DNA of 64,000 bases from NCBI RefSeq assembly GCF_039613825.1, contig NZ_CP154826.1:3224001-3288000 (forward strand). Direction: 5' to 3'. The stretch comes from Diaminobutyricibacter sp. McL0608 (GTDB taxonomy: Bacteria > Actinomycetota > Actinomycetes > Actinomycetales > Microbacteriaceae). The notes beneath the pieces are model-generated. The model was not told where the DNA came from. It saw only the letters and a program-made list of their open reading frames with translations, and searched no databases. Numbering within the stretch: the stretch's first letter is position 1; each line of letters starts with the position of its first letter. Positions 10,118 through 28,308 of this stretch are shown in pieces. Both the position numbers and the translations under genes were made by a program.

Positions 10118-10130
10118 ACGGCGTCACGCC

Positions 10131-11709: not shown

Positions 11710-12798
11710 GTGAACAATCCGCTCGCCGACATCGCGCTTCGTGACTTTCGCCCACGCCCCGCCGTTCGTCTCGCCGCACATCACCCTGCACGTGCGACGG
11801 CACCCGTGGTGGACATCCACAACCATCTCGGCCGCTGGCATGACGGCGACTGGCGCGTGGCCGACATCCCGGCACTGGTCGGACTCATGGACGACTGCAA
11901 TGTCGCAACCATCGTCAATCTCGACGGCTGCTGGTCTGATGAACTCGAGCTGAACCTCGACCGGTACGACCGGCAGTATCCGGGTCGCTTCCTGACGTTC
12001 GCGCGACTGGACTGGACGGACACCGCCACGGCGGGCTGGCCTGAACGCTTCGCCGCGTCCATCCGCGACTCCGCTCGCCGGGGGGCGAAAGGTCTGAAGC
12101 TGTGGAAAGACATCGGCCTTCGTGTGCGCGATGAGAACGGCGAGCTCATTTTCCTCGACGACACCAGGCTGGAGCCGGTCTGGACCGCGATCGCCGAATG
12201 CGGGCTGCCCGTTCTGGTTCACACCGCGGACCCTGCTGCGTTCTTCGAGCCCCTCGACGAGACGAACGAGCGCTTGGAGGAATTGCTCGAGCACCCGGAT
12301 TGGCACTTCTACGGCCCCGACGTGCCGACCCTCTCGCGTCTTTTGAGCGCTCTCGAGAACGTGGTCGCCGCGCATCCTTCGATCACCTTCATCGGAGCCC
12401 ACGTCGGCTGCTACGCAGAGGACCTCGACTGGGTGGACCGGATGCTGACCGACTACTCGAACTTCTTCATCGACATCGCCGCGCGGATCGCAGAGTTGGG
12501 CCGTCAGCCCCGCCGAGCGAAACAGCTGATCGAACGTCACCCTTCCCGGGTGCTTCTCGGAAGCGACGTCTCACCGCCGACCGCAGAGGCCTACGCCACG
12601 TACTTCCGGTTTCTGGAGACGGCCGACGAGTATTTCCCCTACACGAATGAGGATCCACCTGACACCGGTCGCTGGAACATCTCCGCTCTCGACCTGAACG
12701 AGGCTCAGATCGAGGCTGTCGAGGGCGGCAACGCGCGAGCGCTCCTCGCCGAACAACTCGTGTCCGGGACTCCGCACGGTGTCGGAGTGGACGTCTAG
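11710..12798 (+). CDS. Metal-dependent amidohydrolase, HNHLGRW family (copy 2)
   Basis: This is a 362-residue amidohydrolase-2 protein, homologous throughout to the product of 7190-8263. Shared blocks are VVDIHNHLGRW (the HxH metal site), NVATIVNLDGCWSDEL, GAKGLKLWKDIGL, PVLVHTADPAAFFEP, FIGAHVGCYAEDLDWVDR and LLGSDVSPPTAEAYATYFRF. The start GTG at 11710 has AAGGAG eight bases upstream; the open frame begins at 11623 but lacks a site there. The two copies flank one ABC importer and are transcribed divergently from a common region, so both probably act on the imported compound or on two related steps. The exact reaction is unknown. Confidence 0.85.
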   Translation: MNNPLADIALRDFRPRPAVRLAAHHPARATAPVVDIHNHLGRWHDGDWRVADIPALVGLMDDCNVATIVNLDGCWSDELELNLDRYDRQYPGRFLTFARLDWTDTATAGWPERFAASIRDSARRGAKGLKLWKDIGLRVRDENGELIFLDDTRLEPVWTAIAECGLPVLVHTADPAAFFEPLDETNERLEELLEHPDWHFYGPDVPTLSRLLSALENVVAAHPSITFIGAHVGCYAEDLDWVDRMLTDYSNFFIDIAARIAELGRQPRRAKQLIERHPSRVLLGSDVSPPTAEAYATYFRFLETADEYFPYTNEDPPDTGRWNISALDLNEAQIEAVEGGNARALLAEQLVSGTPHGVGVDV

Positions 12799-13828: not shown

Positions 13829-14359
13829 TCACCGCCGCAACAGGTTTGAGCAGCGCGATCTCCCCACATCGGTAATCTGCCCCACGTCGGAGCCGCGCGG
13901 CGAGGTCCGGCCGAAGCTTCCGTCATCCCCGAATGTTGGTCGATCACGTGCCGGCCATAAGCCAATCCTCGAAGCGCCGACGTCGTCGAACTCACGCCGC
14001 AGGTACTTCGGAGCCTGCACACGCCACGCCTCCGTGACGAGTTCGGCGAGATGGTCCTCCTCGATGCCGGCCATGCGGAATGCGACCTTCGGCTCGCCCC
14101 AAGGGGTCGTGGTGCGCAGGAACACGTTGGGCGCCATTTCGACAAGGGCGAGCGCGTCCAGGCTGTCGGCGACCTTCACGCCGACGACGAGCTCGGTCGC
14201 AACTATCTCGCGTATGTCTGCGGGGATGCTCGGCCAAGGATGGCACTCCCACGCATACAGCTTGCCGCGAACGAACCAAGCGGCACCGCCTGTCGTCGCG
14301 CGCTCCTCGCTACCGGGCAACCCAACGGCGGTCCGGCGCAGGTCGTCGAGGGTAGCCAC
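13829..14359 (-). CDS. MmcQ/YjbR-family protein with unusual tail
   Basis: The first ~120 residues match the MmcQ/YjbR family: an N-terminal helix with DDLRRTAVGLPGSEE, then AAWFVRGKLYAWECHPW, FLRTTTPWGEPKVAFRM and finally LVTEAWRVQAPKYLRREFDD, where family members normally end. About 55 further residues follow that look unrelated (rich in Gly, Arg, Ser and Asp). They may come from a lost stop codon or a frameshift rather than a real domain. No function is firmly established for the family. The gene is a single unit, divergent from the ArfB-like gene. Confidence 0.75.
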   Translation of the reverse strand: MATLDDLRRTAVGLPGSEERATTGGAAWFVRGKLYAWECHPWPSIPADIREIVATELVVGVKVADSLDALALVEMAPNVFLRTTTPWGEPKVAFRMAGIEEDHLAELVTEAWRVQAPKYLRREFDDVGASRIGLWPARDRPTFGDDGSFGRTSPRGSDVGQITDVGRSRCSNLLRR

Positions 14360-14446
14360 ACTGTGAGCCTATGGCGCACTACCGACATGAGGTCGCGAGC
14401 AGGTCCGTCTGCGTGAGTATCTCGGGCCTGAGAGGATGATGGACCC

Positions 14447-14884
14447 ATGCCCGCTGTTCACCGTCCCGGCCTTCGGGTCGGCCCCGGACTCACGATCCCT
14501 GAGTCCGAGTTGGCTTGGCGGTTCTCGCGGTCATCGGGTCCCGGCGGGCAGGGTGTCAACACTGCCGACTCTCGGGCGGAACTCGTGTGGGATGTGTCAG
14601 GCTCCGCCGTTCTCTCGCCGTCCCAGCGGGAGAGACTCCTCGAGCGTCTGAGCAGTCGCCTCGTCGACGGAACGCTCGCGATCGCGGCATCCGAGCACCG
14701 CGCGCAATTGCGCAACAGGGAAGCTGCCCGCGCCCGGCTGGCCGAAATCGTGGCAGACGCCCTCCGGCCGCCAGAACCGTCGCGAAAACCGACGAGGCCG
14801 AGTCGCGGTGCCGAGCAACGGCGTTTGGACGCGAAGAAGCGGCGCACCGACGTCAAGCGACTGCGTCGCCCTCCTCACGACTGA
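14447..14884 (+). CDS. arfB: ArfB-like peptidyl-tRNA hydrolase, ribosome rescue
   Basis: This 145-residue protein carries the class-I release-factor GGQ motif in the setting FSRSSGPGGQGVNTADSRAEL, followed by SPSQRERLLERLS. The C-terminal tail is strongly basic (RRLDAKKRRTDVKRLRRP). This is the layout of ArfB/YaeJ, which enters the empty mRNA channel of stalled ribosomes with its tail and releases the nascent chain through the GGQ loop. The length is normal for the family. The start ATG at 14447 follows AGAGGA. It is monocistronic; the 3' side is a long non-coding region. Confidence 0.92.
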   Translation: MPAVHRPGLRVGPGLTIPESELAWRFSRSSGPGGQGVNTADSRAELVWDVSGSAVLSPSQRERLLERLSSRLVDGTLAIAASEHRAQLRNREAARARLAEIVADALRPPEPSRKPTRPSRGAEQRRLDAKKRRTDVKRLRRPPHD

Positions 14885-15211: not shown

Positions 15212-15534
15212 GCGTTTGTCAAAGAACTCGACCGGCAAAAACGGGCTGAACAGTGTCTCTCGACAGCGCCGCGGAATCGTGTTCGCGATGGGAGATTGCA
15301 CGTGTAGTGCCACGACGCATTGCTAGGAGAAACCCTCGGAGCCCATCGAGACAGGGTTCACGGGGCTTCACTATGGCGGTACCGGTGGGATTTGAACCCT
15401 GATTCGGGCGCCTGATGCCGTTGGTTCTGGTCGAACTTCCGCGGAAAATCAGCGAAGGAGCCCACTCGATCTCAGATGGTTGTAGTCAAATACAACAACC
15501 AGTGGAGGTGGAAGTTTGAATTCCGTCGTGATAA
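15212..15534. other. Non-coding stretch with tRNA 3'-end fragment
   Basis: No supported gene lies here. At 15374-15399 the plus strand reads as the complement of a tRNA 3' end: an encoded CCA, an acceptor strand (complement of GGTACCG) and the T-arm half (complement of GGGTTCAAATCCCACC). The match stops in the T stem; the preceding bases do not form the T-stem partner, a D arm or an anticodon arm. It is therefore a remnant and not a gene. Such fragments are what phage- or island-type integration at the 3' end of a tRNA gene leaves behind. No integrase is visible nearby. Confidence 0.55.
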
Positions 15535-15550
15535 CGTTAAATCGATTTAC
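15535..15550. promoter_or_regulatory. LacI-type operator, copy 1 (CGTTAAATCGATTTAC)
   Basis: The 16-base palindrome-like site CGTTAAATCGATTTAC is identical to the site at 21994-22009. Its CGTTAAATCGATT portion recurs on the complement at 28293-28306. It has the length and central CG symmetry of LacI-family operators. It lies 28 bases before the start codon of the truncated enolase-superfamily reading frame. The adjacent LacI gene (15719-16729) is the obvious candidate binder. Confidence 0.65.
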
Positions 15551-15718: not shown

Positions 15719-16729
15719 CTACCGTGTTGGGGGTGCGGAGGTCGACTTTCGAAGGATGAGCTCGGGTGCCGGTGAATCTATCGTGGCGTGCGAGACGGTG
15801 CCGGAGCCGTTGGAAAGTGCAGTCACGGCCGAGGTCCCCAGGCGCCGGAGGGGCATCCTGACGGTCGTGATCGGCGGCCATGTCGCGTCGGCGTACCACA
15901 CATCGTGGAGGGCGACGATGGAGATGTCGGAGGGAACGCGCAGTCCGTGTGCGTGGATCTCTGCGAGTACGCCGAGTGCCGCGTTGAGGTTGGCAACCAC
16001 GAGTCCGGATGGCATCGGCCCCCGCTCGAGAAGGTCGCGCACCGCCTCGCGGCCGTCCTCTCCCGCATAGCCGCGGTCGGTCATCCAGGTTTCGCGAACG
16101 GCGAGGCCCGCGTCATGCATTGCAGCCCGGAAGCCGGCCTGTCGGCGGATGCCTGTTGCGCTTCCGACCGGGCTGCCCACGAACCCGATCCTGGTGTGAC
16201 CAAGTGCGATCAGGTGTTCGACCGCTTTTGCGATACCCGCTCCATCGTCGAGGACGATCGTGCTCACCGGTCCGTCGGAAACTGAGTTGATCAACACGAG
16301 CGACGTACCAGGGACGATAAGCGCCTCCACGTCCGCCGGGGTGGTGCCGTCTGGTGGCTGCAGGATCGCACCGTCGATCCGGCCTTCGCCGACAAGGCCC
16401 CGAAGCCACCCGCGGTCCTCGTCGAGGCGTTCGGCGCGTCCGAGCACGATGGCGAGGTCTCTCGACGCCGCTTCCTCCTCGACACCCCGAGTGAGCTCTG
16501 CGAACACGGCGCTCGTGATGTCGGGCACGATGAGCGCGATTGTCCGCGTACGCGATGTCCTCAGCGATTTCGCTGCGTAGTTCGGGATGTAGTTGAGCTC
16601 CCGCGCCGCGGTGACGACCCGCTCGCGTGTTTCAGCAGATACTCGCAGGGCCGTATCGCCGGAGAGGATGCGCGAAACGGCGCCGGGAGAAACTCCGGCG
16701 CGCGCCGCGACATCACGCATCCTGACCAT
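15719..16729 (-). CDS. LacI-family transcriptional regulator of the deoxysugar cluster
   Basis: This 336-residue repressor-type protein has an N-terminal helix-turn-helix (MRDVAARAGVSPGAVSRILSG), the hinge region NYIPNYAAKSLRTSRT and a periplasmic-binding-protein-like effector domain with IALIVPDITSAVFAELTRGVEEEA and HTRIGFVGSPVGSATGIRRQAG. The start ATG at 16729 is preferred over an upstream TTG. It is the last gene of the long leftward operon that begins at 21980. It probably binds CGTTAAATCGATTTAC at 15535, 21994 and 28293, with a sugar or sugar acid as effector. That link is inferred from motif type and position. Confidence 0.9.
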   Translation of the reverse strand: MVRMRDVAARAGVSPGAVSRILSGDTALRVSAETRERVVTAARELNYIPNYAAKSLRTSRTRTIALIVPDITSAVFAELTRGVEEEAASRDLAIVLGRAERLDEDRGWLRGLVGEGRIDGAILQPPDGTTPADVEALIVPGTSLVLINSVSDGPVSTIVLDDGAGIAKAVEHLIALGHTRIGFVGSPVGSATGIRRQAGFRAAMHDAGLAVRETWMTDRGYAGEDGREAVRDLLERGPMPSGLVVANLNAALGVLAEIHAHGLRVPSDISIVALHDVWYADATWPPITTVRMPLRRLGTSAVTALSNGSGTVSHATIDSPAPELILRKSTSAPPTR

Positions 16730-16744
16730 GACCAAATCACACCC

Positions 16745-17836
16745 TTACTGACGAAGGCCTGTACCGAGTTGCACGACCTCGTTGGTCTCCATCGACCGAT
16801 AGAGCGCGTCGACGAGCTCGATCGTTCTCACGTTATCAGCGACGGAACTGCGCGGCTCGGCACCCGATCGGATCGCCTCGAACACCGAACCCATCGACCC
16901 GATGAACGCGTTCGGAAACCACCGCTGGGTCACGGGGTAGGGGATCCAGCCGTCGGTGCCGACTATCGAGCTGGTGACGTCGAGTGTGTCTGGGCGGCCG
17001 TTCGGGTAGTCGTACAGCAGGCCGAGCGTGCCCCTGATTGCTCCGTGTGAGCCTTCGATGCGGAACTCGGCGTAATTGTCACCGCCGCTGTTGGTGTGGT
17101 TTGCATGAACCAGGGCTGAGGCGCCGTTGGCGAAGGTGTACATGCTCATCGTGCGCGTCTCCCCAACGGGGAACTGCCCTGGCTTGCGACCGGCAACCGC
17201 GTAGACGGATGACGGCTCGCCCATGAACCAACGGACCGCGTCGTGATAGTGGATCGAATGGACCATGATCTCGAGCCGTTCCATAGAACGAGCCCACTCC
17301 CATTGCGTCCAGTCGGTGTCGATGTTGACGATGATCGAAAACGAGGTGAGCGATCCGAGCCAGCCCAGTTCGATCATCCGGTGGGCGGCGGCGATGCCCT
17401 CGTCGAACCGCATCTGTTGGTTGACCGCAGCTACGAGCCCGGACCGTTCCGCCAACGAGGCGAGTTCGCGTGCCGTGACCGGGTTGTCGGCGAACGGTTT
17501 CTGCGCGAGCACGTGCTTGCCCGCCGCGATAGCGGCAGAAAAGATCGGCGGCTGGGCGCTGACCGGGACCGCGATATCGACGACGACGGCATCACTGGCC
17601 AATAAGTCCTCGAGCGTTGCGAAGACCCGCGGAATGCCGTGGCGATCAGCCACCCGCTGCGCCCTATCGAGATCGGTGTCAGTGATTCCGATCACCTCGA
17701 GCCCAGCGATCGCATAGGCGGGCAGGTGGGCACCGTCTACGATGCCGCCGGCGCCGACGATCGCGATCGGTTGGCGATCCTCCGCCGGGATTTCAAGGCG
17801 GCAGTAGTCCGAGACGTCGGCGAAGAGGTCGATCAT
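16745..17836 (-). CDS. Gfo/Idh/MocA-family NAD(P)-dependent oxidoreductase (1)
   Basis: This 363-residue protein begins with a Rossmann fold ([33 protein letters not shown]). It carries the family's catalytic-lysine motif, here AQKPFADN in place of EKP, and then a C-terminal alpha/beta substrate domain ([23 protein letters not shown]). Such enzymes oxidise sugars or inositols at a hydroxyl. In this operon it could form the lactone hydrolysed by the COG3618 amidohydrolase, or oxidise the deoxy-keto acid. The ATG overlaps the upstream MaoC stop as ATGA; LacI follows 15 bases after its end. Confidence 0.88.
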
Positions 17837-18348
17837 GCTGAAGCCTTCGCAACGAGGGGGTCACGATACTTGACGGTCTGGAGGTGTTCGCAATAGAGCA
17901 CCAGTTGTTCGTCGTCGGCACGAAACACTTCGTACGAGACGACGAACAGGCCCATGTCGTCGTATTTCGGCTCCTTGCGAAGCAGAGTGCGCATCGTGTA
18001 AATGGTGTCGCCGACGAAGACCGGCTTGATGAACCGCAGCCGGTCGTACCCGTAGCTGAACGTGTTCACGTTGTTGTGTGCCATCAGGCCCATGCCGTAG
18101 CTGAAGACGAGTGCGCCCGGGACGATCCTCTTGCCGAAATGGCCTTCTTCACGCGCGAAGATGTCATCGGCAACGTACGGGTGGAGGTCGACGAGGAGGC
18201 TCGAGAACAGCATCATCTCGCCCTCTGAGATCGTGCGTCGAATGGAGCGATCGACCTCGCCGACTTCGTAGTCCTCGTAGAGCTGGACGTCTTGATTCCA
18301 GACCGGTACGGCGTTTCGGGCGGCGGGGTCGGTGTTCGGATTCTTCAC
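17833..18348 (-). CDS. MaoC-like hot-dog dehydratase/hydratase (1)
   Basis: This 171-residue hot-dog protein resembles MaoC (R)-specific enoyl-CoA hydratases. The segment [38 protein letters not shown] includes the Asp...His arrangement and the conserved IVPGAL helix start. [17 protein letters not shown] is also typical of the family. It acts on acyl-CoA substrates in the cytosol. The start GTG at 18348 is chosen because a longer frame reads through the CoA-transferase gene. It lies five bases behind the CaiB-type gene and overlaps the dehydrogenase start. The hydratase signature is a variant, so the true reaction is open. Confidence 0.82.
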
Positions 18349-18353
18349 TGGGT

Positions 18354-19526
18354 TCAGCCTTTCTCTGAGAACTCGGCGCGGATCGCGGCGGTGTGCTCGC
18401 CGAGCCTTGGCGCGCCCTTGCGGTGCTTGATCGGGTGCCCGTCGAAGCGCACCGGTGTCCGGGTCGTCTGGATGGCGACCGGGGCGCCGCCCGCGGCGTT
18501 CGGTCGTTCGGTCTCTTGAGCCATGTCGAGCGCCATGAAGCCGGGGTGCGAGACGAGTTCGGGCAGGCTGAGCACCGGAGCGCACCAGATATCGGCGGCA
18601 TCGAGGATGCAGAGCCAGTGCTCGGTCGACTGCGTCGCCAAATGAGCTGCGAGTACTTGGGTGATTGCTGCCTGGTCGGTCCACCAGCTTTCGGGATCGG
18701 CGTACTCGTGGAGATCGAGACCGACGAGTGTTCCGAGTTCGGGCACCGGTGTCATTGCGATCGCGAGGTACCCGTTGGAGGTGGGATATACGCCATAAGG
18801 CGCTGGCAGGAACGCGTGCGCGGTGTTCTTCGCTCCGCGTCGAACCTCGATCGACGAATCCCCGAGGCGCGAACTCAACAGTTCGAACTGAAGGTCGAGC
18901 AGCGACTCCAACAGGCTCGTGTCGACGCGACCGCCGACACCCGTACGTTCACGTCGAAGCAGCGCGGCCGTGACACCGCTGGCCAGGTGGATGGATGCCA
19001 TCACATCCGCGAGCGCGATACCTACTGGAACCGGCGGGTCGTCGGAGCTGCCGTTGAGCCAGGGAAGCCCCGATAGAGACTGGGCGAGCAGATCCTGCCC
19101 CGGCCGATCCTTCCACGGGCCCTGGTCCCCGTACCCGCTCACGCTTGCGTACACGACGCGCGGGTTCACAGCGGCGACGGCCTCATAGCCGAAGCCCAGG
19201 CGTTCCATGATTCCCGGCCGGAAGTTCTGTACGATCACGTCGGCCTTGGCTACGAGCGCACGAATTCCTTCAAGGTCGTCCTCATTCTTGAGGTCGGCGG
19301 CATAGCTTTCCTTGTTCCGGTTGGTGATGTGGAAGGAGAGGGTGTCGCCGTCCTCCACGATGCCGGCGAACGCGAGACGGCGACCGATGTCGCCGCTTTG
19401 AGGACGCTCGATCTTGATCACGCGGGCGCCCAGGTCGCCGAGGCGCATCGCCGCCATGGGCCCGGAGAGGAACTGGCTGAAGTCGAGTACGAGCATCCCG
19501 TCGAGGGGAAGCGCCGGCTGTGTCAT
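18354..19526 (-). CDS. Class III (CaiB/BaiF) CoA-transferase
   Basis: This 390-residue protein has the family III CoA-transferase hallmarks. They are [35 protein letters not shown] at the N-terminus, [44 protein letters not shown], and the catalytic-region Asp in [16 protein letters not shown]. It moves CoA from an acyl-CoA donor to a carboxylic acid such as carnitine, bile acid or formate. Here the acceptor is likely an organic acid made by the sugar-acid enzymes of the same operon. The ATG overlaps the amidohydrolase stop (ATGA). A CoA-transferase with two MaoC genes inside a sugar regulon is unusual. Confidence 0.93.
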
Positions 19527-20386
19527 GCGATGTCCAAGTTGTAGGCGCGGATGGCAGTGCGGTAGAAGATGTCGTCCTGTTCGTCAGGGCTGTAGCGGCC
19601 GATCACTTCGCGCTGCGCGAGCCAGACACCCTGGAAGTCGCCGGCCAGCGTGGACACGGGCCAGTCACTGCCGAGCATCATGCGATCGGAACCGAAAGAC
19701 GCGAGGGCGTGGTCGACGTAGGGCTTCCAGTCCTGCCACGTCCAGTTGGCGGCGGAGGCGGTGTTCAGGCCGGAGATCTTCACATTCACGTTCGGTCGGC
19801 GGGCGGCGTCAGCGAGCAGCGACGCCCATGGCTCCCAGCCCTTATCCGCGATTGCCGGCTTTGCGAGGTGGTCGATCACGATCGTGAGATCCGGATGCCG
19901 GTCTGCGAGCTCGGCGACGGTCTCCAGGTGCTCCGGAACCACGCTGACCACGTCGAGAGCCAGCGAATGCTTCGGAAGCGCATTGATCGTCGCCTCCACG
20001 TCGTCGCGCAGCAGCCAGCGCGGGTCTGCATAGGTGTGGTTCAGCACGCGGACGCCGCAGACGGCCGGGGACTCAGCGTACAACTCGAGCGCTGCCGTCG
20101 CTTCGGCTTCGCGGTCGAGCGGCACCCAGGCCACGACGCCCTTGACCACCGGGACGCGCGCAGCGACACTCAGCATGTAGAAGGTGTCGTCATAGGTGTC
20201 AGTGGCCTGCACAAGAACGGTGTCGGTGATTCCAGCCGCGGCTACGTCGTCAGCGACATCCTCCGGGCCGAAGTCCGCATCGAGCGGCGCTCCGAAGGCG
20301 TCCAGCCATTCGTAGCGGCGCTCCGACGGTTTCCAGAGGTGCTGGTGAGTGTCGATCATGCGTGCCGGTTGATAAAGCGCGCTCAT
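19523..20386 (-). CDS. COG3618 amidohydrolase, probable sugar-lactonase
   Basis: This 287-residue TIM-barrel hydrolase begins RMIDTHQHLWKPSERRYEWLDAF, the HxH signature of the COG3618 group. That group includes L-fuconolactone and L-rhamnonolactone hydrolases and 2-pyrone-dicarboxylate lactonase. Further marks are VLNHTYADPRWLL, LTIVIDHLAKP and the catalytic Asp in RMMLGSDWPVS. The start ATG at 20386 has AAGGAG nine bases upstream. In the operon it would open the lactone made by the dehydrogenase, ahead of the enolase-superfamily dehydratase. The exact sugar is inferred only from the mutarotase and neighbours. Confidence 0.88.
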   Translation of the reverse strand: MSALYQPARMIDTHQHLWKPSERRYEWLDAFGAPLDADFGPEDVADDVAAAGITDTVLVQATDTYDDTFYMLSVAARVPVVKGVVAWVPLDREAEATAALELYAESPAVCGVRVLNHTYADPRWLLRDDVEATINALPKHSLALDVVSVVPEHLETVAELADRHPDLTIVIDHLAKPAIADKGWEPWASLLADAARRPNVNVKISGLNTASAANWTWQDWKPYVDHALASFGSDRMMLGSDWPVSTLAGDFQGVWLAQREVIGRYSPDEQDDIFYRTAIRAYNLDIA

Positions 20387-20835
20387 TGTTGTCTCTCCTT
20401 GCTGTGGGTACTGACCAGGTAACAATGCACAAAGGCGAGAACGATCTCGCCCCGTTGATTTCGGACTTCGACGGTCTCCTCGACGATGCCGAACTCGTCC
20501 GGGCGCTTCGGATACGGGCGGGTTGCCGTGATGGCGCTGCGCGACGTGATGGTGTCGCCGATGTGGACGGGTTTCACGAATCGGACACGGTCGTATCCGT
20601 AGCTCACGGCGTTCTCATCGACTTCCCCGGCGAGCAATCCGACCGCGATCGACAGGATGAGAGTGCCGTGTGCGATCCGCTGACCCCCGGGAAGTGTCTT
20701 CGCGAACTCGGCATCCATGTGGTGGGGGTAGAAATCTCCGGATTGCCCCGCGTGCAACACGATGTCAGCTTCTGTGACGGTCCGCCCTCGGCTGCGTCGC
20801 GCCGTTCCCAACTCGAACATTTCCATGATGGTCAT
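20383..20835 (-). CDS. MaoC-like hot-dog hydratase (2)
   Basis: This 150-residue MaoC-domain protein has the classical active-site block GQSGDFYPHHMDAEFAKTLPGGQRIAHGTLILSIAVGLL, with the Asp and His of (R)-hydratases in their usual spacing, and ends with VSYGYDRVRFVKPVHIGDTI. The start ATG at 20835 follows GGGAGGAC and overlaps the stop of the binding-protein-like gene by four bases. A second MaoC (17833) is encoded three genes on, so a heterodimer is possible, as known for some hydratases of steroid degradation. It would hydrate or dehydrate an enoyl-CoA made after the CaiB step. Confidence 0.88.
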   Translation of the reverse strand: MTIMEMFELGTARRSRGRTVTEADIVLHAGQSGDFYPHHMDAEFAKTLPGGQRIAHGTLILSIAVGLLAGEVDENAVSYGYDRVRFVKPVHIGDTITSRSAITATRPYPKRPDEFGIVEETVEVRNQRGEIVLAFVHCYLVSTHSKERQQ

Positions 20836-21980
20836 CGGATGTCCTCCCTCAGGTGCACTCCCGGAAGACGTTCGATACGGTCGAGGACTGTGTCGTCGAC
20901 TTTGCGGGCAATGATGGCGTCGCGCACGATGTGCGACAACGCGAATTGGAGATCGGGCCAGCCCAGGACACGGGGTCGCACCCATGCGTTCTCCAGCGTC
21001 CTGAGCGTGTTCCGGAAGAACCCGTGGGTGAGCTGGTTGGTTCGATCGCTCTTCCACGCCCGAAGGTTTCCGGGCTGCCCGCCGCCGATGGTGTACTCGT
21101 TCGATTGCAGTTCGGATCCGGCGAGTGCGGCGGCGACGGCAATGGCCTGCTCCGGGTGGGCGCTCGACGCGGACACTGCAATACCCGCACCTCCCAGCGT
21201 GGAACCGGTTGCTCGGCCGTCGAACGAAGTGATGTCGTCGTAGGCGAGTAGACGTCGTCGGAACCCGCTACGTGAGTAGTTCGAGTATCCGTAAAGCCCG
21301 ATGCCGACGCTGTAATCGTCGCCGTCGATGAGCGCTTCGGCCACATCGATAGGATTCGCATCGGCACACCACCCGGGCACGGAGTCAGCCAGCCGGATCA
21401 TGAATTCGAGCACGTCTCCGGCGGCCGCGCGATCGACGAATCGCTTCCGGGTGGCCAGAGGTTCGCCCCATTGAGCGAGCAGTGTTGCGAACGTGCTGAA
21501 CGCATCCACCGGCTTCCACGGCCACAGCAGCTTGCCCCGCCTGGCGAGCTCGAGCACATCCGACCAATATGTGGGGCCCCCGTCGCACAGGTCCGGCCGG
21601 AACGCGCTCACCTGCGCAGCTGCGTCGATCGCGAAGGCCCACTGCGCCTCGTGGTATTTGTACGAGTCGTGGGACGCGCCGACGCTCTCGAGCTCCAGCG
21701 CCTCGTTCTGAGGGGAATCGGTGAGAGGGAGGAGAGCTCCGGCTGCGACCGCATCCGCAACGTGGGGGTGGTCGATGACCATCAGGTCGAAGCCCGGGGC
21801 GAAATCGGCGATGTGCTGGTCACCGAAGGCGAGCAGTGAGCGTGCCTCCCACTCGATTACCACATTGTGGTGGTCGAGGAGCTGCAGTCCGGACCGGCGG
21901 AGCCCGCCAACGCCACGTGGGTGATCCCACGTCATTCCTTTGAGCACCAGCGGAGGTGCGATCGTCGACTTCATCGTCAT
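20832..21980 (-). CDS. Solute-binding-protein homologue without signal peptide
   Basis: This 382-residue protein resembles sugar-type extracellular binding proteins (for example GAGIAVSASSAHPEQAIAVAAALAG and GGGQPGNLRAWKSD). However, it starts TMKSTIAPPLVLKGMTWDHPRGVGGL, with no signal peptide, hydrophobic helix or lipobox Cys, so it should stay in the cytosol. GMTWDHPRG is a motif I associate with binding-protein-like genes beside CoA-transferase and MaoC genes in other bacteria. It is the first gene of the operon, 14 bases from the LacI-type operator at 21994-22009, and is coupled to MaoC (2) by a four-base overlap. Its job is unknown; an enzyme, a substrate carrier or a sensor are all possible. 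Confidence 0.82.
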   Translation of the reverse strand: MTMKSTIAPPLVLKGMTWDHPRGVGGLRRSGLQLLDHHNVVIEWEARSLLAFGDQHIADFAPGFDLMVIDHPHVADAVAAGALLPLTDSPQNEALELESVGASHDSYKYHEAQWAFAIDAAAQVSAFRPDLCDGGPTYWSDVLELARRGKLLWPWKPVDAFSTFATLLAQWGEPLATRKRFVDRAAAGDVLEFMIRLADSVPGWCADANPIDVAEALIDGDDYSVGIGLYGYSNYSRSGFRRRLLAYDDITSFDGRATGSTLGGAGIAVSASSAHPEQAIAVAAALAGSELQSNEYTIGGGQPGNLRAWKSDRTNQLTHGFFRNTLRTLENAWVRPRVLGWPDLQFALSHIVRDAIIARKVDDTVLDRIERLPGVHLREDIR

Positions 21981-21993: not shown

Positions 21994-22009
21994 CGTTAAA
22001 TCGATTTAC
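21994..22009. promoter_or_regulatory. LacI-type operator, copy 2 (CGTTAAATCGATTTAC)
   Basis: The 16-base site is identical to that at 15535-15550. It lies in the 65-base gap between the mutarotase stop and the start of the binding-protein-like gene, 14 bases before that ATG. It therefore appears to control the leftward operon 21980 to 15719, which ends with the LacI gene itself (autoregulation). A promoter here would split the CoA operon from the transport/dehydratase genes upstream. Confidence 0.7.
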
Positions 22010-22045: not shown

Positions 22046-22369
22046 TCAGTCCAGGTGGAAGATCTCGGGAAGCTCTTTCCACCATTCGCCCTCGAGGCGG
22101 TCGTCGACCGGCCTCTGAAGGGGCATGCAGACCGCCCACCATTCCTGGGTCACCGGGTCTGCAGCCATCGAGGCCATGTCACGATCGAAGTCGCTGCCCG
22201 CGTACTCCATGTACGAGAACAAGAGCTCGCCGTATCGGTAGATCGAGTAGTTGACCACGTTGTTCGCTGACAGGCACGCGAGAACGCTCGGCCACACATG
22301 CGCATGTAGGCGCTCGTACTCCTCAACGCTCTCGGCGGGCAGTCCTATGACCGAGGCGATCCGTTTCAT
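22046..22369 (-). CDS. L-rhamnose mutarotase-like (RhaM family) protein
   Basis: This 107-residue protein matches the RhaM/YiiL mutarotase family: YERLHAHVWPSVLACLSANNVVNYSIYRYGELLFSYMEY with the active-site His and Tyr, then WWAVCMPLQRP, and the terminal EIFHLD. These enzymes interconvert the alpha and beta anomers of L-rhamnose (related ones act on L-fucose), so the substrate is probably a 6-deoxyhexose. The ATG at 22369 shares a base with the dehydratase stop (TGATG) and follows AAAGGAAC. It is the last gene of the transporter operon from 26674. Confidence 0.9.
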   Translation of the reverse strand: MKRIASVIGLPAESVEEYERLHAHVWPSVLACLSANNVVNYSIYRYGELLFSYMEYAGSDFDRDMASMAADPVTQEWWAVCMPLQRPVDDRLEGEWWKELPEIFHLD

Positions 22370-23469
22370 CAACGTTCCTTTCTGGCGGCTGACATCAGGT
22401 CGGCGAGCGCTTGCGGTGGCCCGTCCAACCATTCACCTTCCCACCCGACGCCCGGGAGGGTCGGTACGTGCACGAAACCGTCCGCATCGACTTCGCTGGG
22501 CCGGCGAACGGGATTCGAGTCGATGAGGGATTCGTAGTATGTGGTGTTGCTGATCGACATGCAGAGGTGGCGGTTGGCGATGCCTCCGCCATGCACCTCG
22601 GCACGCAGAAGGAAGGACTCCGCAAGGTGCGCTGTGCGCATCGCGCCGGTGAAGCCGCCGCGAAGGTGGGTTCCCGTTCGCACTGCTGCCGCGCATCCCG
22701 CAGCGATGAAATCGGCCGTCTTCATGTGGGCTCCTTCAGCGACTTCAGCGACGATCAGCGGCACGTCGACCCGCTCGGCGAGCCGCTGATAGGCCGTGAC
22801 GCTGAATTCGCGCATCGGCTCCTCGTACCAGAGGTAGTCCGCAGAGCTGAGAGCCCTACCCAGGTAGGTGGCGTCGAGCAGGTCGAAACCGGCCGAGCCG
22901 TCGTACATGAGCGGCACCTCCGCGCCGACGTGCTCACGCAGCGCTTCGGCGAGGCGGGCGTCTCGCCGTACATCCCCCCACGCGTGGAGCTTGATCGCCG
23001 AATATCCGAGTCCAAGGCACTGGTCGGCGACAGCGAGATACTCTTCGATCGAACCGAAGGTCACTGTCGACGCGTAAGCCGGCAATGATTCGCGGAATGA
23101 ACCCAGCAGCTTGTAGACCGGCAGACCGACATCCTTTCCAGCGAGGTCCCACAGCGCGACGTCGACGACACCCTGCACCCAGACGGGGAACCGCTCGATC
23201 CTGTCGAGCTCCCAGACACGGTGCCACAGGAACTCGCGTGCGATCGGGTCCTGGCCGAGCAGTTCCCCGCATAGCCTTCGGTCGACGACATCCTGGAGGA
23301 TCGCGCCGCGCAGGGTGAACCCCAGCCCTGCCACCCCTTCATCAGTGCGGATGACAAGCCAGGCACCGTCGAGTTCCGGCTCGGATCCTGGCAGGCCGTC
23401 GCGCCAGATGAACGCGGGGCTGTGGGCCGGGATGGTGACGCGCACGACGTCGACTGCAGTGATCTTCAC
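22369..23469 (-). CDS. Enolase-superfamily sugar acid dehydratase
   Basis: This 366-residue enzyme has the two-domain mandelate racemase/enolase fold. The capping domain starts MKITAVDVVRVTIP. The barrel carries YSAIKLHAWGD (catalytic-base strand), metal ligands D in PLMYDGSAGFD, E in WYEEP and E in VAEVAEG, and a late His in EVHGGGIANRHLCMSIS. Members dehydrate aldonates such as L-rhamnonate, L-fuconate or galactonate to 2-keto-3-deoxy acids. The GTG start at 23469 lies 15 bases after the permease stop; the longer frame overlaps the permease. With the mutarotase and COG3618 lactonase it forms a plausible oxidative deoxysugar route. Confidence 0.88.
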   Translation of the reverse strand: MKITAVDVVRVTIPAHSPAFIWRDGLPGSEPELDGAWLVIRTDEGVAGLGFTLRGAILQDVVDRRLCGELLGQDPIAREFLWHRVWELDRIERFPVWVQGVVDVALWDLAGKDVGLPVYKLLGSFRESLPAYASTVTFGSIEEYLAVADQCLGLGYSAIKLHAWGDVRRDARLAEALREHVGAEVPLMYDGSAGFDLLDATYLGRALSSADYLWYEEPMREFSVTAYQRLAERVDVPLIVAEVAEGAHMKTADFIAAGCAAAVRTGTHLRGGFTGAMRTAHLAESFLLRAEVHGGGIANRHLCMSISNTTYYESLIDSNPVRRPSEVDADGFVHVPTLPGVGWEGEWLDGPPQALADLMSAARKER

Positions 23470-23483: not shown

Positions 23484-24431
23484 TCAGCTCTTGACGGATC
23501 CGGCAAGTACGCCACGCACAAGCAGCTTCGACGACGCCAGGAAGACAATCAGGATCGGGATGCTCAGGATCAGACCCGCGAGCGCGATCTCCGGTCGCCC
23601 GATCACGCTCTGCTCGGCCCCGTTGCCCGGGTTCAGTGCGGGCGTGGAGCTGAACAGCACGCCGAGTCCGACCGGGAGGGTGAAGTTGCTGGCGGAACCG
23701 AGGAGAACGTAAGGGAGGAAGTAGTTCACCCACGTCGCGCTGAAGCTGAAGAATGCGAGCATCCCGAGCAGCCCTTTGGACAGGGGCAGGGCGACCCTGA
23801 AGAACGTCGCGAACTCCCCCGCGCCGTCCACGCGCGCAGCCTCGTACAGTTCAGTGGGAATCGAGGTCGTGAAATAGATGTACGCGAGGAAGACACCGAA
23901 CGGGTAGAACGAACTGGTGAGGATGACTGCCGCGGGCGTGTCGAACAGTTGCAGGTTCGAGATCTCGATGAAGAGCGGGAGCACCAGCGCGACCGGTGGA
24001 ATGATCATCGCGATCAGCGTGGTGACGAGCAGGGTCCGCTTGAACGGCAGTGCCGTCGCAGCGAGCGCGTACCCGGCGAGGATCGCGGTGATGCAGGAGA
24101 TTCCGACGATCGCGACCGTGTACAGCACAGAGTTGAGGAGCCACTGCAGCACGACGCCGTCCTGGAAGGTGAGCAGGTGCTGCCACGCGACCCCGTAGTT
24201 GCCGAAATCGCCGAAGGAGAAGGGGTTGTCGTCGTTGAGCTGCGTGGCGGACTTCGATGGCGCGAGGAGCAGCCAGATCATGGGGATGATGCTGAAGAGG
24301 CTGTAGAGCACCAGCACCACCCATACGCCGGCGCGTCCCGCGTTTCCGGCTGGGGTTCGCTTCTGTCTTTCCCTGGGCCGAGTTGTTGGCCGCTGGGCTG
24401 ATGGGGCTTCGTCGAGGATGGTGGTTGTCAT
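23484..24431 (-). CDS. ABC sugar importer permease, MalG type
   Basis: This 315-residue protein has a basic, disordered N-terminus (RPTTRPRERQKRTPAG) and six membrane segments beginning VWVVLVLYSLFSIIPMIWLL. The EAA loop is YEAARVDGAGEFATFFRVALPLSKG. It pairs with the permease gene it overlaps by four bases. Its sequence is unlike the permeases at 8302 and 39586, so this importer is of separate origin and probably of different specificity. There is no ATPase gene in the operon. Confidence 0.94.
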   Translation of the reverse strand: MTTTILDEAPSAQRPTTRPRERQKRTPAGNAGRAGVWVVLVLYSLFSIIPMIWLLLAPSKSATQLNDDNPFSFGDFGNYGVAWQHLLTFQDGVVLQWLLNSVLYTVAIVGISCITAILAGYALAATALPFKRTLLVTTLIAMIIPPVALVLPLFIEISNLQLFDTPAAVILTSSFYPFGVFLAYIYFTTSIPTELYEAARVDGAGEFATFFRVALPLSKGLLGMLAFFSFSATWVNYFLPYVLLGSASNFTLPVGLGVLFSSTPALNPGNGAEQSVIGRPEIALAGLILSIPILIVFLASSKLLVRGVLAGSVKS

Positions 24432-25324
24432 TTCTCTTTCACTCCTACGCCGTCGAAGAAATCTGTGCGGAAGATGACGACGAGTGCGCCGACGAGGCAG
24501 ACCAGAAGGAGCATGAGCGACAGGGCGGCTGCTCCGCCGAGGTTGTTCGACTGGAATGCGAAGGTGTAGCTGAGCTGGTTGAGCGACCAGTTCGAGGCCA
24601 GGCCGGGATACACCGACGCGGAGATGAGCTGCGGTTCGACGAACACCTGCAGGCCCGCAGCGAATACCAGGATGCCCATGTACACGAGGTATTTGCGGAT
24701 CAGCGGCAGTTTGATCCGCCAGCCGATCTGCCAGGCATTCGCCCCGTCGATCCGCGCGGCCTCGAGGATGTCGTCAGAGATCGACTGCAGCGACCCGTAC
24801 TGAACGACGATCCAGTTGCCGGCGCCCGTGAAGAAGGCCATCAACACGAAGATCCAGGCGAGGTTCTCAGCGCGCCAAATCTGGCCGCCCTGGGTGATGC
24901 CCAGTGCGTGGAGCACGTCGCGGTACGGGCTCAGGTTCGGCTCGAGAAGGAAGTACCAGACGAGAACGGACGTGGCGCCGGTGAGGGATGCGGGCACGAT
25001 GTAGACGAGTCGGAGCGGGAGGTTCCAGCGGCCCTGCACAGTGTCAAGGAGGAGAGACATGAGAGCGACCACGATGAGCATCAGTGGCACGTAGAGGAGC
25101 AGGAAGATACCGACATTGACGAGTGCGGGCAGGAAACGGAAGTCCTGCAGGACGTTCAGAGAGTTGAGGATGCCGCCGTCGGGGTTGATAGGGGTCGCTT
25201 TTACTGAGGTGGTGGCCGATACGACAATCGGAACGACACCGAACGCCACGAGCAGCACGAGGTACGGCGTGAACATGATCGCCCCGGCGAGGAGGCTCTT
25301 CTTCGTTGCTTTCGAGCGCGACAC
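24428..25324 (-). CDS. ABC sugar importer permease, MalF type
   Basis: This 298-residue membrane protein has six segments starting LLAGAIMFTPYLVLLVAFGVVPI and an EAA loop ILEAARIDGANAWQIGWRIKLPL. The start is GTG at 25324, preceded by AAAGGG. It lies 69 bases downstream of the binding-protein gene and overlaps the MalG-type partner. Its role is membrane passage for the sugar or sugar acid captured by the lipoprotein encoded upstream. Confidence 0.94.
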   Translation of the reverse strand: MSRSKATKKSLLAGAIMFTPYLVLLVAFGVVPIVVSATTSVKATPINPDGGILNSLNVLQDFRFLPALVNVGIFLLLYVPLMLIVVALMSLLLDTVQGRWNLPLRLVYIVPASLTGATSVLVWYFLLEPNLSPYRDVLHALGITQGGQIWRAENLAWIFVLMAFFTGAGNWIVVQYGSLQSISDDILEAARIDGANAWQIGWRIKLPLIRKYLVYMGILVFAAGLQVFVEPQLISASVYPGLASNWSLNQLSYTFAFQSNNLGGAAALSLMLLLVCLVGALVVIFRTDFFDGVGVKEK

Positions 25325-25393: not shown

Positions 25394-26674
25394 CTATTCG
25401 GTGACGACCTTGTACCCGGACTGCGGGGCGAGTTGCTGCAGCGAGGTTGCGAAATCATTCAGCGCGGTTTCGAGGGACTTTCCGCTGTTGATGTCCGCCT
25501 GCAGCTTCGTCCCGACCTGAGCCTCGAACGCGAAGCGGACTGGGCGGTTGACCTGGTCGATCTTCGGCGCCTGCTCCGACATCGGCGTGTAGACGTTGCT
25601 CGCGTAGTAGGGGTCGGCCGCGATGCGCGTCTCCCACAGCTTGTTCGCCGGTCCGTAGGCCGGGAACGTCGGTGACGGGGTGGTCGCCGCAGCCGATGTG
25701 GTCAGCCATACCGCCGCGTCGGCGGCAGCCTGCGGGAATTTCGAGTGCGAGGAGACCGTGAAGACTCCGCCGCCCCACGCGCCGGACGTGTTCGTGTCTG
25801 CGCCATCCCATTTCGGCTGCGGAGCAGCGGCGATCTCGCCGGCCGGAACGCCCCACGACGTCGGCGCCTTGATGACGAAGTCACCGAACCACGACGGGCC
25901 AAGCGTCATCGCCACCTTGTCCTTCTTGGCGACGTTCTTGATGAATCCAGCGTCGAAGCTCGAGCGCTTGTCTAGAACCCCCGCATCGAGAAGGGGCTGG
26001 GCCAGTTGCGCGACTCGCGTGCACTCCGGAGCGTTCGGGGCGATCCGCACGGTGTTCTTCGAGGGGAGTGCCGACAGCGGGCACGAACTGGACTGAAGGA
26101 ACGATGCCCAGTAGTTCTCGTCGCCGATCGCGCCTGCGGAGTATCCCGTGCCCTTCAGCTTCATCGCGGTGGCCGCGAATTCGTCCATTGTTGTCGGCAC
26201 CGTCAGGCCGAGCTGTTTGAAGATCTTGGTGTTGTACCAGAGCACCGTCTGGGCCAGATCGTTCTTCAGGCAGTAGAACTTTCCGTTGAACTTGCAGTAG
26301 TCGTTTGCGACGCCGAAGCCGTCCATGACCTTCTTCGAGACCAGGTGGGTCAGGTCGGCTGCATAGCCGTTGCTGGGATCGACGAACTGCGCCGTGTCCG
26401 AGGCCGTGCCGAAGATCACGTCGGGCCAACCGCTCTTGGTCTGGTTGTGGAGGGCGATTTTGGTCTGCGCGTCGGCCTGGGCGATGACCTCGATCTTGAT
26501 GTCCTCTTTGCCTGCCATGAGCTTCTTGTAAGCCTGGGCCTGTGGGACACGCGGCGTGTCCACCCAGAGCAGGAGGCTCGGCTTGGCGCCGCTTGTTCCT
26601 GAGGTTGTCGTCGGTGCGCACGCCGCGAGGCTTAAAGCCAGGATCGCAACGAGCCCGATGGCCAGTTTCTTCAT
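25394..26674 (-). CDS. ABC sugar-binding lipoprotein (copy 2)
   Basis: This is a 426-residue extracellular solute-binding lipoprotein. Its short basic start (MKKLAIGLVAIL) and lipobox LSLAAC mark it for lipid anchoring. The mature part carries WPDVIFGTASDTAQF, VLWYNTKIFKQLGLTVPTTM and VAMTLGPSWFGDF, as in CUT1 binding proteins. It heads the operon with two permeases, the dehydratase and the mutarotase. It is divergent from the GntR gene, whose presumed site AAATCCTATAG lies between them. Confidence 0.94.
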   Translation of the reverse strand: MKKLAIGLVAILALSLAACAPTTTSGTSGAKPSLLLWVDTPRVPQAQAYKKLMAGKEDIKIEVIAQADAQTKIALHNQTKSGWPDVIFGTASDTAQFVDPSNGYAADLTHLVSKKVMDGFGVANDYCKFNGKFYCLKNDLAQTVLWYNTKIFKQLGLTVPTTMDEFAATAMKLKGTGYSAGAIGDENYWASFLQSSSCPLSALPSKNTVRIAPNAPECTRVAQLAQPLLDAGVLDKRSSFDAGFIKNVAKKDKVAMTLGPSWFGDFVIKAPTSWGVPAGEIAAAPQPKWDGADTNTSGAWGGGVFTVSSHSKFPQAAADAAVWLTTSAAATTPSPTFPAYGPANKLWETRIAADPYYASNVYTPMSEQAPKIDQVNRPVRFAFEAQVGTKLQADINSGKSLETALNDFATSLQQLAPQSGYKVVTE

Positions 26675-26851
26675 AGGTGCTCCCGTTCGTGCTGTGAAGG
26701 AACGAAAGAAAGCACCTTCGCTCCGATTCGTAATACTACATGATTTCTCGAAATCCTATAGTCTTTTGTTTATCGACCGATCGTGAGCGTAACTCTGCGA
26801 TCTACGAATCGCGCGATAGCTTTGATGATGAGAAGTGAGACAGGAGACGCA
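26675..26851. promoter_or_regulatory. Divergent control region with TCCTATAG motif
   Basis: This is the region between the leftward transporter operon and the GntR gene. AAATCCTATAG at 26751-26761 recurs exactly at 28350-28360 and as TTTCCTATAG at 28331-28340, all near genes of this cluster. CTATAG is self-complementary. It may be the binding site of the adjacent GntR/FCD regulator; alternatively TATAGT is simply a -10 box. The AGGAG at 26843-26847 supports the TTG start of the regulator. Confidence 0.45.
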
Positions 26852-27622
26852 TTGGCTACCGATTTGGCCAGACGCACCGCAGCCGGCCCCCGCCGCCAGG
26901 TTTTGGCCGACGGCACCTACGGCGCGATCAAGGCGATGATCCTCGACCACGAGATCGCGCCAGGCGAACACGTCGGTATCGATGAGCTGGCCCGCGACCT
27001 GTCCGTTTCGCAGACGCCCGTGCGGGAAGCGCTCGCACGGCTCGAATCCGACGGGCTCGTGACGAAGATTCCCCTGCGCGGGTATGAAGCGACGAATCTT
27101 CTCTCGGTTCAGCAGTTCGACGAACTCTTCCACTTTCGCACTCTCATCGAGCCGTGGGCCGCTGCCGAGGCGTCTCATCGCAGCACCCGTCTCGAAATCG
27201 AAGCCATCAAAGCCGAACTCGATCGCGCCCAGCGCGGCTCGATCGATCCTGAGACAGCCACCTACGCTTCATTCATCGAACACGACACCCGGTTCCACAC
27301 CCTGGTGGCGAAGGCTTCGGGCAATCCATTCGTTGAAGACGCTTTCATCCGAACTCACTGCCATCTCCACTTGTTCCGGGTGTACAAAGCGGCGATGAGC
27401 GAAGACCAAGACCGACGCAGCGACGCCAGCTTCGTGAGAAACATGTTCGAGGAGTATTACAGCGCAGGCAGGTTCCCGCTTGCGCTGACAGAGCACGCGG
27501 AGATCGCCGCTGCGATTGCAGGAGGCCGCGCTGACACGGCGCGCGATCTCATGCTCGACCACATCGAGTCATCCCGGCTCCGATTCATTCCGGCGGTCGA
27601 GGCGCTCAACGCACGAGGCTGA
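26852..27622 (+). CDS. GntR/FCD-family transcriptional regulator (1)
   Basis: This 256-residue regulator has an N-terminal winged helix (GTYGAIKAMILDHEIAPGEHVGIDELARDLSVSQTPVREALARLESDGLV). It is followed by the all-helical FCD ligand domain with HFRTLIEPWAAAEAS, a metal-type motif FIEHDTRFHTLVAKASGNPF, and EHAEIAAAIAGGRADTARDLMLDHIESS. A TTG at 26852 is preferred because AGGAG lies five bases upstream. In-frame GTG (26783) and ATG (26825) are alternatives. It is divergent from the importer operon and probably represses it until a sugar acid binds. The 3' neighbour is the converging RraA-like gene. Confidence 0.88.
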   Translation: MATDLARRTAAGPRRQVLADGTYGAIKAMILDHEIAPGEHVGIDELARDLSVSQTPVREALARLESDGLVTKIPLRGYEATNLLSVQQFDELFHFRTLIEPWAAAEASHRSTRLEIEAIKAELDRAQRGSIDPETATYASFIEHDTRFHTLVAKASGNPFVEDAFIRTHCHLHLFRVYKAAMSEDQDRRSDASFVRNMFEEYYSAGRFPLALTEHAEIAAAIAGGRADTARDLMLDHIESSRLRFIPAVEALNARG

Positions 27623-28278: not shown

Positions 28279-28292
28279 ACGCCCTCCAGAGA

Positions 28293-28308
28293 CAATCGAT
28301 TTAACGAC
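28293..28308. promoter_or_regulatory. LacI-type operator, copy 3 (complement of CGTTAAATCGATTGT)
   Basis: On the complement this site reads CGTTAAATCGATTGT, sharing its first 13 bases with the sites at 15535 and 21994. It lies 15 bases before the RraA-like start codon and about 100 bases before the rightward beta-helix gene. It puts the RraA-like gene in the same apparent LacI regulon. Two TCCTATAG motifs (28331-28340 and 28350-28360, 20 bases apart) lie between this site and the secreted protein gene. Confidence 0.6.

Follow-up and report, generated by a model that had tools for sequence, protein, structure and literature searches.

A conserved CoA-transferase, hydratase and binding-protein gene set in deoxysugar and pentose oxidation clusters, possibly a CoA-linked module for sugar acids

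A 64,000-nucleotide stretch (hereafter, the window) of the 4.2-Mb single-contig genome of Diaminobutyricibacter sp. McL0608 (NZ_CP154826.1, positions 3,224,001 to 3,288,000) carries a compact gene unit that combines a CaiB-type coenzyme A (CoA)-transferase, MaoC-type proteins and a homologue of sugar solute-binding proteins (SBPs) that has no signal peptide, here called SBPlike. The evidence that this gene set is real and conserved, and that it is associated with the oxidation of deoxysugars and pentoses, is strong. We propose, with a probability of about 0.4, that it forms a CoA-linked sugar-acid module in which CaiB and SBPlike work with a hydratase, beside L-fuconate dehydratase. To our knowledge, none of the known L-fucose oxidation routes has a CoA-transferase, a MaoC protein or a cytosolic SBP. 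The genes of the unit are as follows.

20832-21980, minus strand: SBPlike, a solute-binding fold of the sugar ATP-binding cassette (ABC) transporter type without a signal peptide, which opens the unit (Pfam, fold, position of the first start codon)
20383-20835, minus strand: MaoC1, a hydratase-2-type hot-dog protein with the motif GDFYPHH and its catalytic Asp and His (Pfam, motif)
19523-20386, minus strand: COG3618-type amidohydrolase, a probable sugar-acid lactonase (Pfam, NCBIfam)
18354-19526, minus strand: CaiB, a family III CoA-transferase with the catalytic Asp174 (Pfam, alignment with solved members)
17833-18348, minus strand: MaoC2, a MaoC paralogue with Val for the catalytic His, DLHPYV (Pfam, motif)
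16745-17836, minus strand: Gfo/Idh/MocA oxidoreductase, a probable aldose 1-dehydrogenase (Pfam, NCBIfam, neighbours in relatives)
15719-16735, minus strand: LacI-family regulator, which closes the unit (Pfam)

Read 5′ to 3′ on the minus strand, the order is therefore SBPlike, MaoC1, amidohydrolase, CaiB, MaoC2, Gfo/Idh/MocA and LacI. ATGA overlaps join SBPlike to MaoC1, MaoC1 to the amidohydrolase, the amidohydrolase to CaiB, and MaoC2 to the Gfo/Idh/MocA gene, while CaiB and MaoC2, whose start codon is GTG, are separated by 5 bases. The initial annotation had described five genes coupled by such overlaps or a 5-base gap and followed by Gfo/Idh/MocA and LacI genes, and this is borne out by the coordinates of the open reading frames and by Pfam. 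SBPlike matches SBP_bac_8 with 32.4 bits (cut-off 27), MaoC1 and MaoC2 match MaoC with 80.8 and 46.3 bits (cut-off 27), the amidohydrolase matches Amidohydro_2 with 162.8 bits (cut-off 26.4), and CaiB matches CoA_transf_3 (PF02515) with 332.4 bits (cut-off 23.3). The earlier description of the amidohydrolase as a lactonase-like COG3618 hydrolase holds at the level of the family; the NCBIfam equivalog for L-fucono-1,5-lactonase, the better of two family matches, gives 155.4 bits against a required 400.

Asp174 of CaiB, which we take to be the catalytic residue, aligns with an Asp in three solved members of the family and is present in 84 of 84 module CaiBs. By its domain and this residue, CaiB is a predicted family III (CaiB/BaiF) CoA-transferase. 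A carnitine-type identity was considered and rejected, since the protein scores 83.7 bits against the cut-off of 413 for the NCBIfam L-carnitine CoA-transferase equivalog. In MaoC1, the Asp and His of the motif are present in all 72 listed sequences of 76 aligned, and a Tyr stands at the position of the Asn in the usual hydratase-2 motif. MaoC2 has Val in place of the catalytic His, both in the window and in all 28 listed sequences of 32 aligned. Thus, the reading of two MaoC hydratases is right as to the family for both proteins, but the second is degenerate; MaoC2 may be a structural partner.

The predicted structure of SBPlike (mean pLDDT 95.9) is a complete sugar-ABC-type binding fold, with TM-scores of 0.75-0.82 against sugar SBPs (MalE3, 6dtq, ~0.80; SmoF, 7ofy, ~0.81; TMBP, 1eu8). 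The ATG at 21980 is the first start codon after an in-frame stop, and the fold has its first strand from residue 11 onwards; therefore, as the initial annotation had stated, there is no signal peptide, nor is there space for one or for a lipoprotein anchor. In 11 of 33 loci of its relatives, not counting L038, which abuts the end of its contig, the aligned start is preceded by a stop codon at a distance of at most 48 nt; the test is uninformative for the remaining loci, where the frame stays open further up. When SBPlike is aligned with 43 relatives, 23 columns are invariant in the 44 sequences, including W18, H20, R22, D70, D119 and R335, and the relatives share an N-terminal WDHPRG-like motif together with DHPH and RP. 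D70 and R335 fall in stretches alignable with TMBP and LpqY; the ligand-site region, judged by the residues of these two proteins that presumably touch the ligand, is partly alignable.

We also considered whether SBPlike is merely a mis-annotated SBP of an ordinary ABC transporter. This was rejected because the transporter encoded upstream has a separate SBP of its own, because SBPlike has no signal peptide, and because, in the 25 kb examined of two Bacteroidota plasmid loci, SBPlike is accompanied by a RhaT symporter while ABC permeases are absent. In three loci (L059, L060 and L061; two from Bacteroidota, one a sphingomonad plasmid), a second family of signal-less SBPs is found near a second CaiB copy.

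The distribution of the genes was examined in a class sample of 394 genomes, which includes that of McL0608 (G000), with limits for close homologues of at least 275 bits for SBPlike, at least 370 bits for CaiB and an E-value of 1e-25 for MaoC1. Close homologues of each of the three occur in 11 of the 394 genomes, and the three lists name the same 11. For two independent sets of 11 out of 394 to coincide has p ~1e-21, a value that ignores kinship and counts the McL0608 genome, which is in the set by construction. The initial annotation had named CaiB and MaoC genes elsewhere, without sugar genes, as an observation that would speak against it; in these 394 genomes this was not the case for the close homologues. 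A second tier of matches (CaiB ~249-297 bits, SBPlike ~112-184 bits) includes the pentose type described below, and in this tier some genomes, G289 among them, have CaiB but no SBPlike match.

A scan of 84,980 species genomes gave at least 556 relatives of SBPlike, of which the best 80 were taken. Together with 13 plasmid loci and 19 loci from the class sample (the short contig L037 being omitted), these make up 112 loci, of which 86 have flanks longer than 7.5 kb in both directions; neighbours were counted within 10.5 kb. The distance between CaiB and SBPlike is at most 1.5 kb in 83 of the 112 loci, and in 79 of these 83 the two genes are direct neighbours on the same strand. Sinorhizobium meliloti 1021 has CaiB next to SBPlike on pSymB. 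The 86 full-flank loci contain CaiB (83), MaoC1 (66), Gfo/Idh/MocA (60), amidohydrolase (60), SDR (57), MR/MLE (47) and rhaM (43) genes and, less often, MaoC2 (24), L-fuconate dehydratase (23), RraA (20), FAH (15), crotonase (12), KGSADH (9), FAHlong (8), UxaA (6), DHDPS (5) and IlvD (0) genes. Hence, the genome-neighbourhood comparison that had been called for finds the gene set conserved together, both in the class sample and in the 112 loci. The host records comprise Actinomycetota, Alpha- and Betaproteobacteria, Marinomonas, Bacteroidota, a Phycisphaerae bacterium (Planctomycetota) and Dormiibacterota, and the record of L102 names Pelagibacteraceae. Neighbouring frames that clustered and could not be assigned mostly resemble transporter, regulator or antisense frames. 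At ~9000-12600 of locus L165 (G360:C3), a second pair of CaiB and MaoC genes is accompanied by a crotonase-like gene and, by eye, LacI and TRAP transporter genes; no SBPlike was detected with this second pair, which perhaps belongs to a related acid pathway fed by direct uptake of the acid.

Two versions of the cluster can be told apart. The fucose-type version consists of CaiB, SBPlike and MaoC1, and its neighbours include, in some loci, a true L-fuconate dehydratase (589 bits against the solved 2hne) alpha-L-fucosidases and FAH proteins that come near 2,4-didehydro-3-deoxyrhamnonate hydrolase (429 vs 500 bits). L-fuconate dehydratase, lactonase-type, rhaM, SDR and FAH-type genes surround the set in relatives, in keeping with the deoxysugar context that the initial annotation proposed. 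In the pentose-type version, L045, L046, L048 and L050 have CaiB, SBPlike, crotonase, FAHlong and KGSADH in this order; L047 has the same order with LacI inserted, and L063 and L064 have the first four of these genes in the same order. For FAHlong, the matches to solved proteins are 9kkt, listed simply as FAH family protein (384 bits), and the 2-keto-3-deoxy-arabinonate dehydratase 2q18 (72.6 bits). Both Glu positions are present in all 14 crotonase-like genes of the loci; 11 of the 14 are no more than 3.5 kb from SBPlike.

The hydratase fold tracks the sugar class. With hydratases counted within 3.5 kb of SBPlike (which excludes the crotonases 6.8 and 9.5 kb away in L116 and L134), the KDP-dehydratase-like FAHlong is found in 7 of 11 crotonase loci vs 1 of 84 MaoC1 loci, and deoxyhexose markers are found in 4 of 11 vs 73 of 84; neither hydratase is present in 17 of the 112 loci, some of which are short contigs. 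The configuration at C3 is R in L-fuconate, which matches the requirement of MaoC hydratases, and S in D-xylonate and L-arabinonate, which matches that of crotonases, and the split between the two versions agrees with this stereochemistry. In our alignment, the MR/MLE proteins of L045 and L048, which belong to the enolase superfamily, have neither the Asp nor the His of the usual dyad.

Pairs of a CoA-transferase and a hydratase are a common way to dehydrate an unactivated hydroxy acid, and a CoA-ester mechanism for the present gene set is plausible. The sugar would enter through the ABC transporter, be oxidized at C1 by the Gfo/Idh/MocA enzyme and have its ring opened by the COG3618-type lactonase, as the families and their neighbours suggest. 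CaiB would transfer CoA onto the sugar acid, with SBPlike as the sugar-acid-binding partner. The thioester would acidify the C2 proton, and MaoC1 would eliminate the C3 substituent, an OH or, in a modified sugar, an OR. The product would be a 2-keto-3-deoxyacyl-CoA, whose CoA would be passed on to a further molecule of the acid, on the model of the carnitine CaiB/CaiD cycle, and the 2-keto-3-deoxy acid would enter an ordinary lower route. In the pentose version, the crotonase would replace MaoC1. Since both versions share the early steps, the formation of the aldonate and of the 2-keto-3-deoxy acid, it is there that the module should act. Support for the proposal comes from the co-occurrence and pairing of the genes, from the retained catalytic residues and from the split of the hydratases by sugar class. 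It comes also from L087 and L095 (described below), where a known aldonate dehydratase was not detected within 10.5 kb, and from the L095 genome, which has no L-fuconate dehydratase orthologue. It is tempting, if tentative, to go further and regard SBPlike as an SBP that has lost its export signal and turned into the substrate-presenting subunit of a CoA-transferase, in a CoA-thioester branch whose hydratase is chosen by the C3 configuration and which would let aquatic and soil bacteria use acids, likely modified ones, beyond the reach of metal-dependent dehydratases.

How does this compare with known systems? In the carnitine CaiB/CaiD system, a CoA-transferase and a crotonase act together, CoA is recycled, and activation permits loss of the 3-hydroxyl. 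The same two enzyme classes adjoin in the present loci, but the window has a MaoC hydratase, a sugar-acid context and an extra cytosolic protein of the SBP fold, besides the low carnitine score of its CaiB. The oxidative L-fucose pathway of Xanthomonas and Burkholderia shares with the related clusters the Gfo/Idh/MocA enzyme, COG3618-type amidohydrolase, rhaM, L-fuconate dehydratase, SDR and FAH-type genes; the window cluster differs in having no L-fuconate dehydratase of its own, although the genome has one. The oxidative (non-phosphorylative) L-fucose routes, as described in part of PMC6336799, contain no CoA-transferase, MaoC or cytosolic SBP. According to the same part of that paper, Route II of pentose oxidation uses a COG3970 KDP dehydratase and a KGSA dehydrogenase (KGSADH). 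The crotonase version resembles it in being accompanied by FAHlong, mostly with a KGSADH-like gene, and differs in adding CaiB, SBPlike and the crotonase. As for the sugar ABC SBPs (MalE3, SmoF, TMBP), SBPlike shares their whole fold, but it lacks a signal peptide and is linked to CaiB instead of a permease. Among the papers listed in our searches of the open-access literature, a scope outside which most subscription papers and bioRxiv preprints fall, we found none on this gene set; one of them, a Shigella RNA-seq study, mentions CaiB and L-fucose once each.

Several observations weigh against the CoA-linked proposal. The NCBIfam equivalog closest to CaiB scores 207 bits against a cut-off of 750, and therefore no substrate can be deduced from its sequence. 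An L-fuconate dehydratase orthologue is present in all 11 module genomes vs 98 of 394 overall (the chance of 11 out of 11 being ~1.4e-7, ignoring kinship), genomes of 1.5-1.9 Mb hold both it and the module, and 17 of the 23 SBPlike genomes searched have an orthologue of at least 495 bits; so strict a coexistence is not what a pure replacement would lead one to expect. That of McL0608 (G000:C1, 3693134-3694387; 59% identity, 560 bits) is 451 kb off, and the orthologue is likewise far from the module in G059, G131, G360 and G396-G399. An enolase- or UxaA-type gene lies within 10.5 kb in 56 of the 86 loci and in 30 of them there is none; of those 30, L127 and probably L119 have an L-fuconate dehydratase ~16-17 kb away. 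The pentose loci L063 and L064, in which no enolase-, UxaA- or IlvD-type gene was found within 10.5 kb, carry a xylose-isomerase-like TIM-barrel gene that is a possible dehydratase (Pfam, run on L064). The stereochemical rule has an exception in L065 (MaoC with FAHlong), besides the four crotonase loci that carry deoxyhexose markers. Furthermore, the loci were picked by SBPlike similarity and include sister and identical genomes (L036/L068 and L039/L074 are apparently the same contigs). Finally, SBPlike and CaiB distances correlate with r 0.83 across 81 non-redundant pairs, a value that none of 200 shuffles reached, but the correlation of SBPlike with Gfo/Idh/MocA is 0.80, and Gfo/Idh/MocA, the amidohydrolase and MaoC1 all lie at 0.79-0.80. 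These near-equal values therefore show joint inheritance of the cluster, not contact between SBPlike and CaiB.

Since all 11 module genomes of the class sample hold L-fuconate dehydratase, the module is there an addition to this enzyme and not its general substitute, and it probably takes an epimer or a modified relative of L-fuconate, not L-fuconate itself. The notion of a plain replacement of an aldonate dehydratase is weakened by the same genome-wide searches. The reading that agrees best with the data is that this acid is one which metal-dependent dehydratases refuse, for instance an epimer or an O-substituted form. O-methyl sugars from pectin or from algae are plausible as substrates, a possibility for which we found no direct sequence evidence. 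The deoxysugar CoA route of the initial annotation survives in its conserved set and deoxysugar context, but a pentose version with a crotonase exists as well, and the module comes on top of L-fuconate dehydratase.

An alternative, unlikely in our view, is that the module turns another 6-deoxy-aldonate, epimeric or O-substituted, into L-fuconate, for example if MaoC1 and MaoC2 carried out an elimination on the CoA ester followed by re-addition of water, with L-fuconate dehydratase as the obligatory next step. The strict nesting of the module in genomes with this enzyme speaks for it, as does the presence of MaoC2 in 24 and of L-fuconate dehydratase in 23 of the 86 loci. However, MaoC2 lacks the catalytic His, and on chemical grounds a 2-hydroxy-2-enoyl-CoA would tend towards the keto form. 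Moreover, the genomes of L095, L114 and L116 have no L-fuconate dehydratase orthologue and UxaA-type matches of just 131-209 bits, none of them close; they do hold other MR/MLE and IlvD members.

It is also rather unlikely that the CoA chemistry concerns an acyl group or a downstream hydroxy acid, for instance lactate formed in the lower pathway or an organic acid that an esterified sugar releases. An Abhydrolase_3 esterase-type gene (L040, 10506-11429, minus strand) adjoins SBPlike; its family is present in 9 loci in all of the 80 examined, and 8 of the 80 have a member of an FMN-dependent dehydrogenase family (Pfam run on one member of each family). Yet the same CaiB and SBPlike families occur in pentose clusters with other products, the hydratase fold shifts with the sugar class, and the esterase family was found in those 9 loci only.

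Could the module be a second, metal-free dehydratase of L-fuconate (or a pentonate), redundant with the enolase-type enzyme and perhaps of use when metal is scarce? Known aldonate dehydratases are of the IlvD/EDD (COG0129), enolase and UxaA (COG2721) types, as set out in part of PMC6336799. L087 and L095 have a dehydrogenase, a lactonase-type gene, the module and a DHDPS-family gene, and a known aldonate dehydratase was not detected within 10.5 kb; the L087 genome has no L-fuconate dehydratase orthologue and a UxaA-type gene elsewhere (356 bits). In such compact clusters, L063 and L064 included, the dehydration step alone is without a known enzyme, and the MR/MLE protein of the window lacks the strand-6 Asp typical of L-fuconate dehydratases. 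But redundancy is unlikely to be retained in the 1.5-1.9-Mb genomes that hold both, and we regard this explanation as improbable. In L087, a Phycisphaerae contig, a microcompartment shell (BMC) gene follows the module at 14170-14796; a section of PMC8857213 refers to fucose and rhamnose microcompartments of Planctomycetota.

That SBPlike is itself an enzyme acting on the sugar acid, with CaiB and MaoC serving another CoA step, would have a precedent in cyclohexadienyl dehydratase, an SBP turned enzyme, and could account for its many invariant residues, several of them polar, but it is very improbable given the near-constant pairing with CaiB and the position of D70 and R335 in stretches aligned with sugar-binding proteins, which binding alone would explain.

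Upstream of the unit, the cluster extends on the same strand (26674 to 22046) by the genes of an SBP and two permeases and, closer to the unit, those of an MR/MLE enzyme and a rhaM mutarotase. These genes, those beyond them and two copies of a putative operator are as follows.

22046-22372, minus strand: rhaM-family mutarotase (Pfam, NCBIfam)
22369-23469, minus strand: MR/MLE enolase-superfamily protein with the metal ligands but without the strand-6 Asp of the His-Asp pair (Pfam, alignment)
23484-24431, minus strand: ABC sugar permease 2 (similarity to annotated relatives)
24428-25324, minus strand: ABC sugar permease 1 (similarity to annotated relatives)
25394-26674, minus strand: the transporter's own SBP, with an N-terminus that is lipoprotein-like by eye (sequence, NCBIfam)
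26783-27622, plus strand: GntR/FCD regulator, divergent (domain match)
27623-28350, minus strand: RraA-like (aldolase superfamily) gene, frame interrupted (reading frames)
21995-22009, no strand: 15-bp palindromic operator-like site, 14 bases 5′ of the SBPlike start codon (genome search)
15536-15550, no strand: second copy of the 15-bp site, downstream of LacI (genome search)

In the alignment of the window MR/MLE protein with L-fuconate dehydratases, the metal-binding Asp, Glu and Glu and the strand-7 His are all present. The protein departs from L-fuconate dehydratase in the strand-6 Asp of the strand-6 Asp/strand-7 His pair and in the KxK motif, with RTGT vs QIDA and KLH vs KLK, these residues being taken in the roles that they have in that enzyme. 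Its nearest solved relative, 1rvk, is named merely isomerase/lactonizing enzyme. The RraA-like gene lies in two frames that switch near 27,990, so it is either disrupted or affected by an assembly error.

LacI-family operators typically carry a central CG, and so does the 15-bp palindrome GTAAATCGATTTAAC, which flanks the SBPlike-LacI unit on both sides. These are exactly the two copies in the genome, even with one mismatch permitted, and therefore the unit is probably under the control of its own LacI. An operator common to the relatives was rejected, the exact core of the palindrome being found in 0 of 112 other loci searched. The promoter scan gave no promoter-like site, and fewer than in shuffled sequence. 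By eye, 15374-15401 (minus strand) resembles the 3′ end of a tRNA and is unique in the genome, possibly an old integration site at the operon's edge; ARAGORN found no tRNA genes within the window. Elsewhere in the window, GH116 and GH36 glycoside hydrolase genes lie at 31366-36198, near the sugar clusters, and an IlvD/EDD-family gene (49029-50789, plus strand) with GntR/FCD and PfkB genes (51742-53465) probably forms a separate sugar-acid cluster.

In the literature that we searched, no route described for sugar oxidation involves a sugar-acid CoA ester or an enzyme partner that is cytosolic and has an SBP fold. The hypothesis that the present gene set is a CoA-linked sugar-acid module centres on a single enzyme pair, a single stereochemical rule and a single operator. 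The recurrence of the set across phyla, including 1.5-Mb Actinobacteria, which are presumably of the freshwater type, and a contig recorded as Pelagibacteraceae, bears on the use of deoxysugars by abundant aquatic bacteria.

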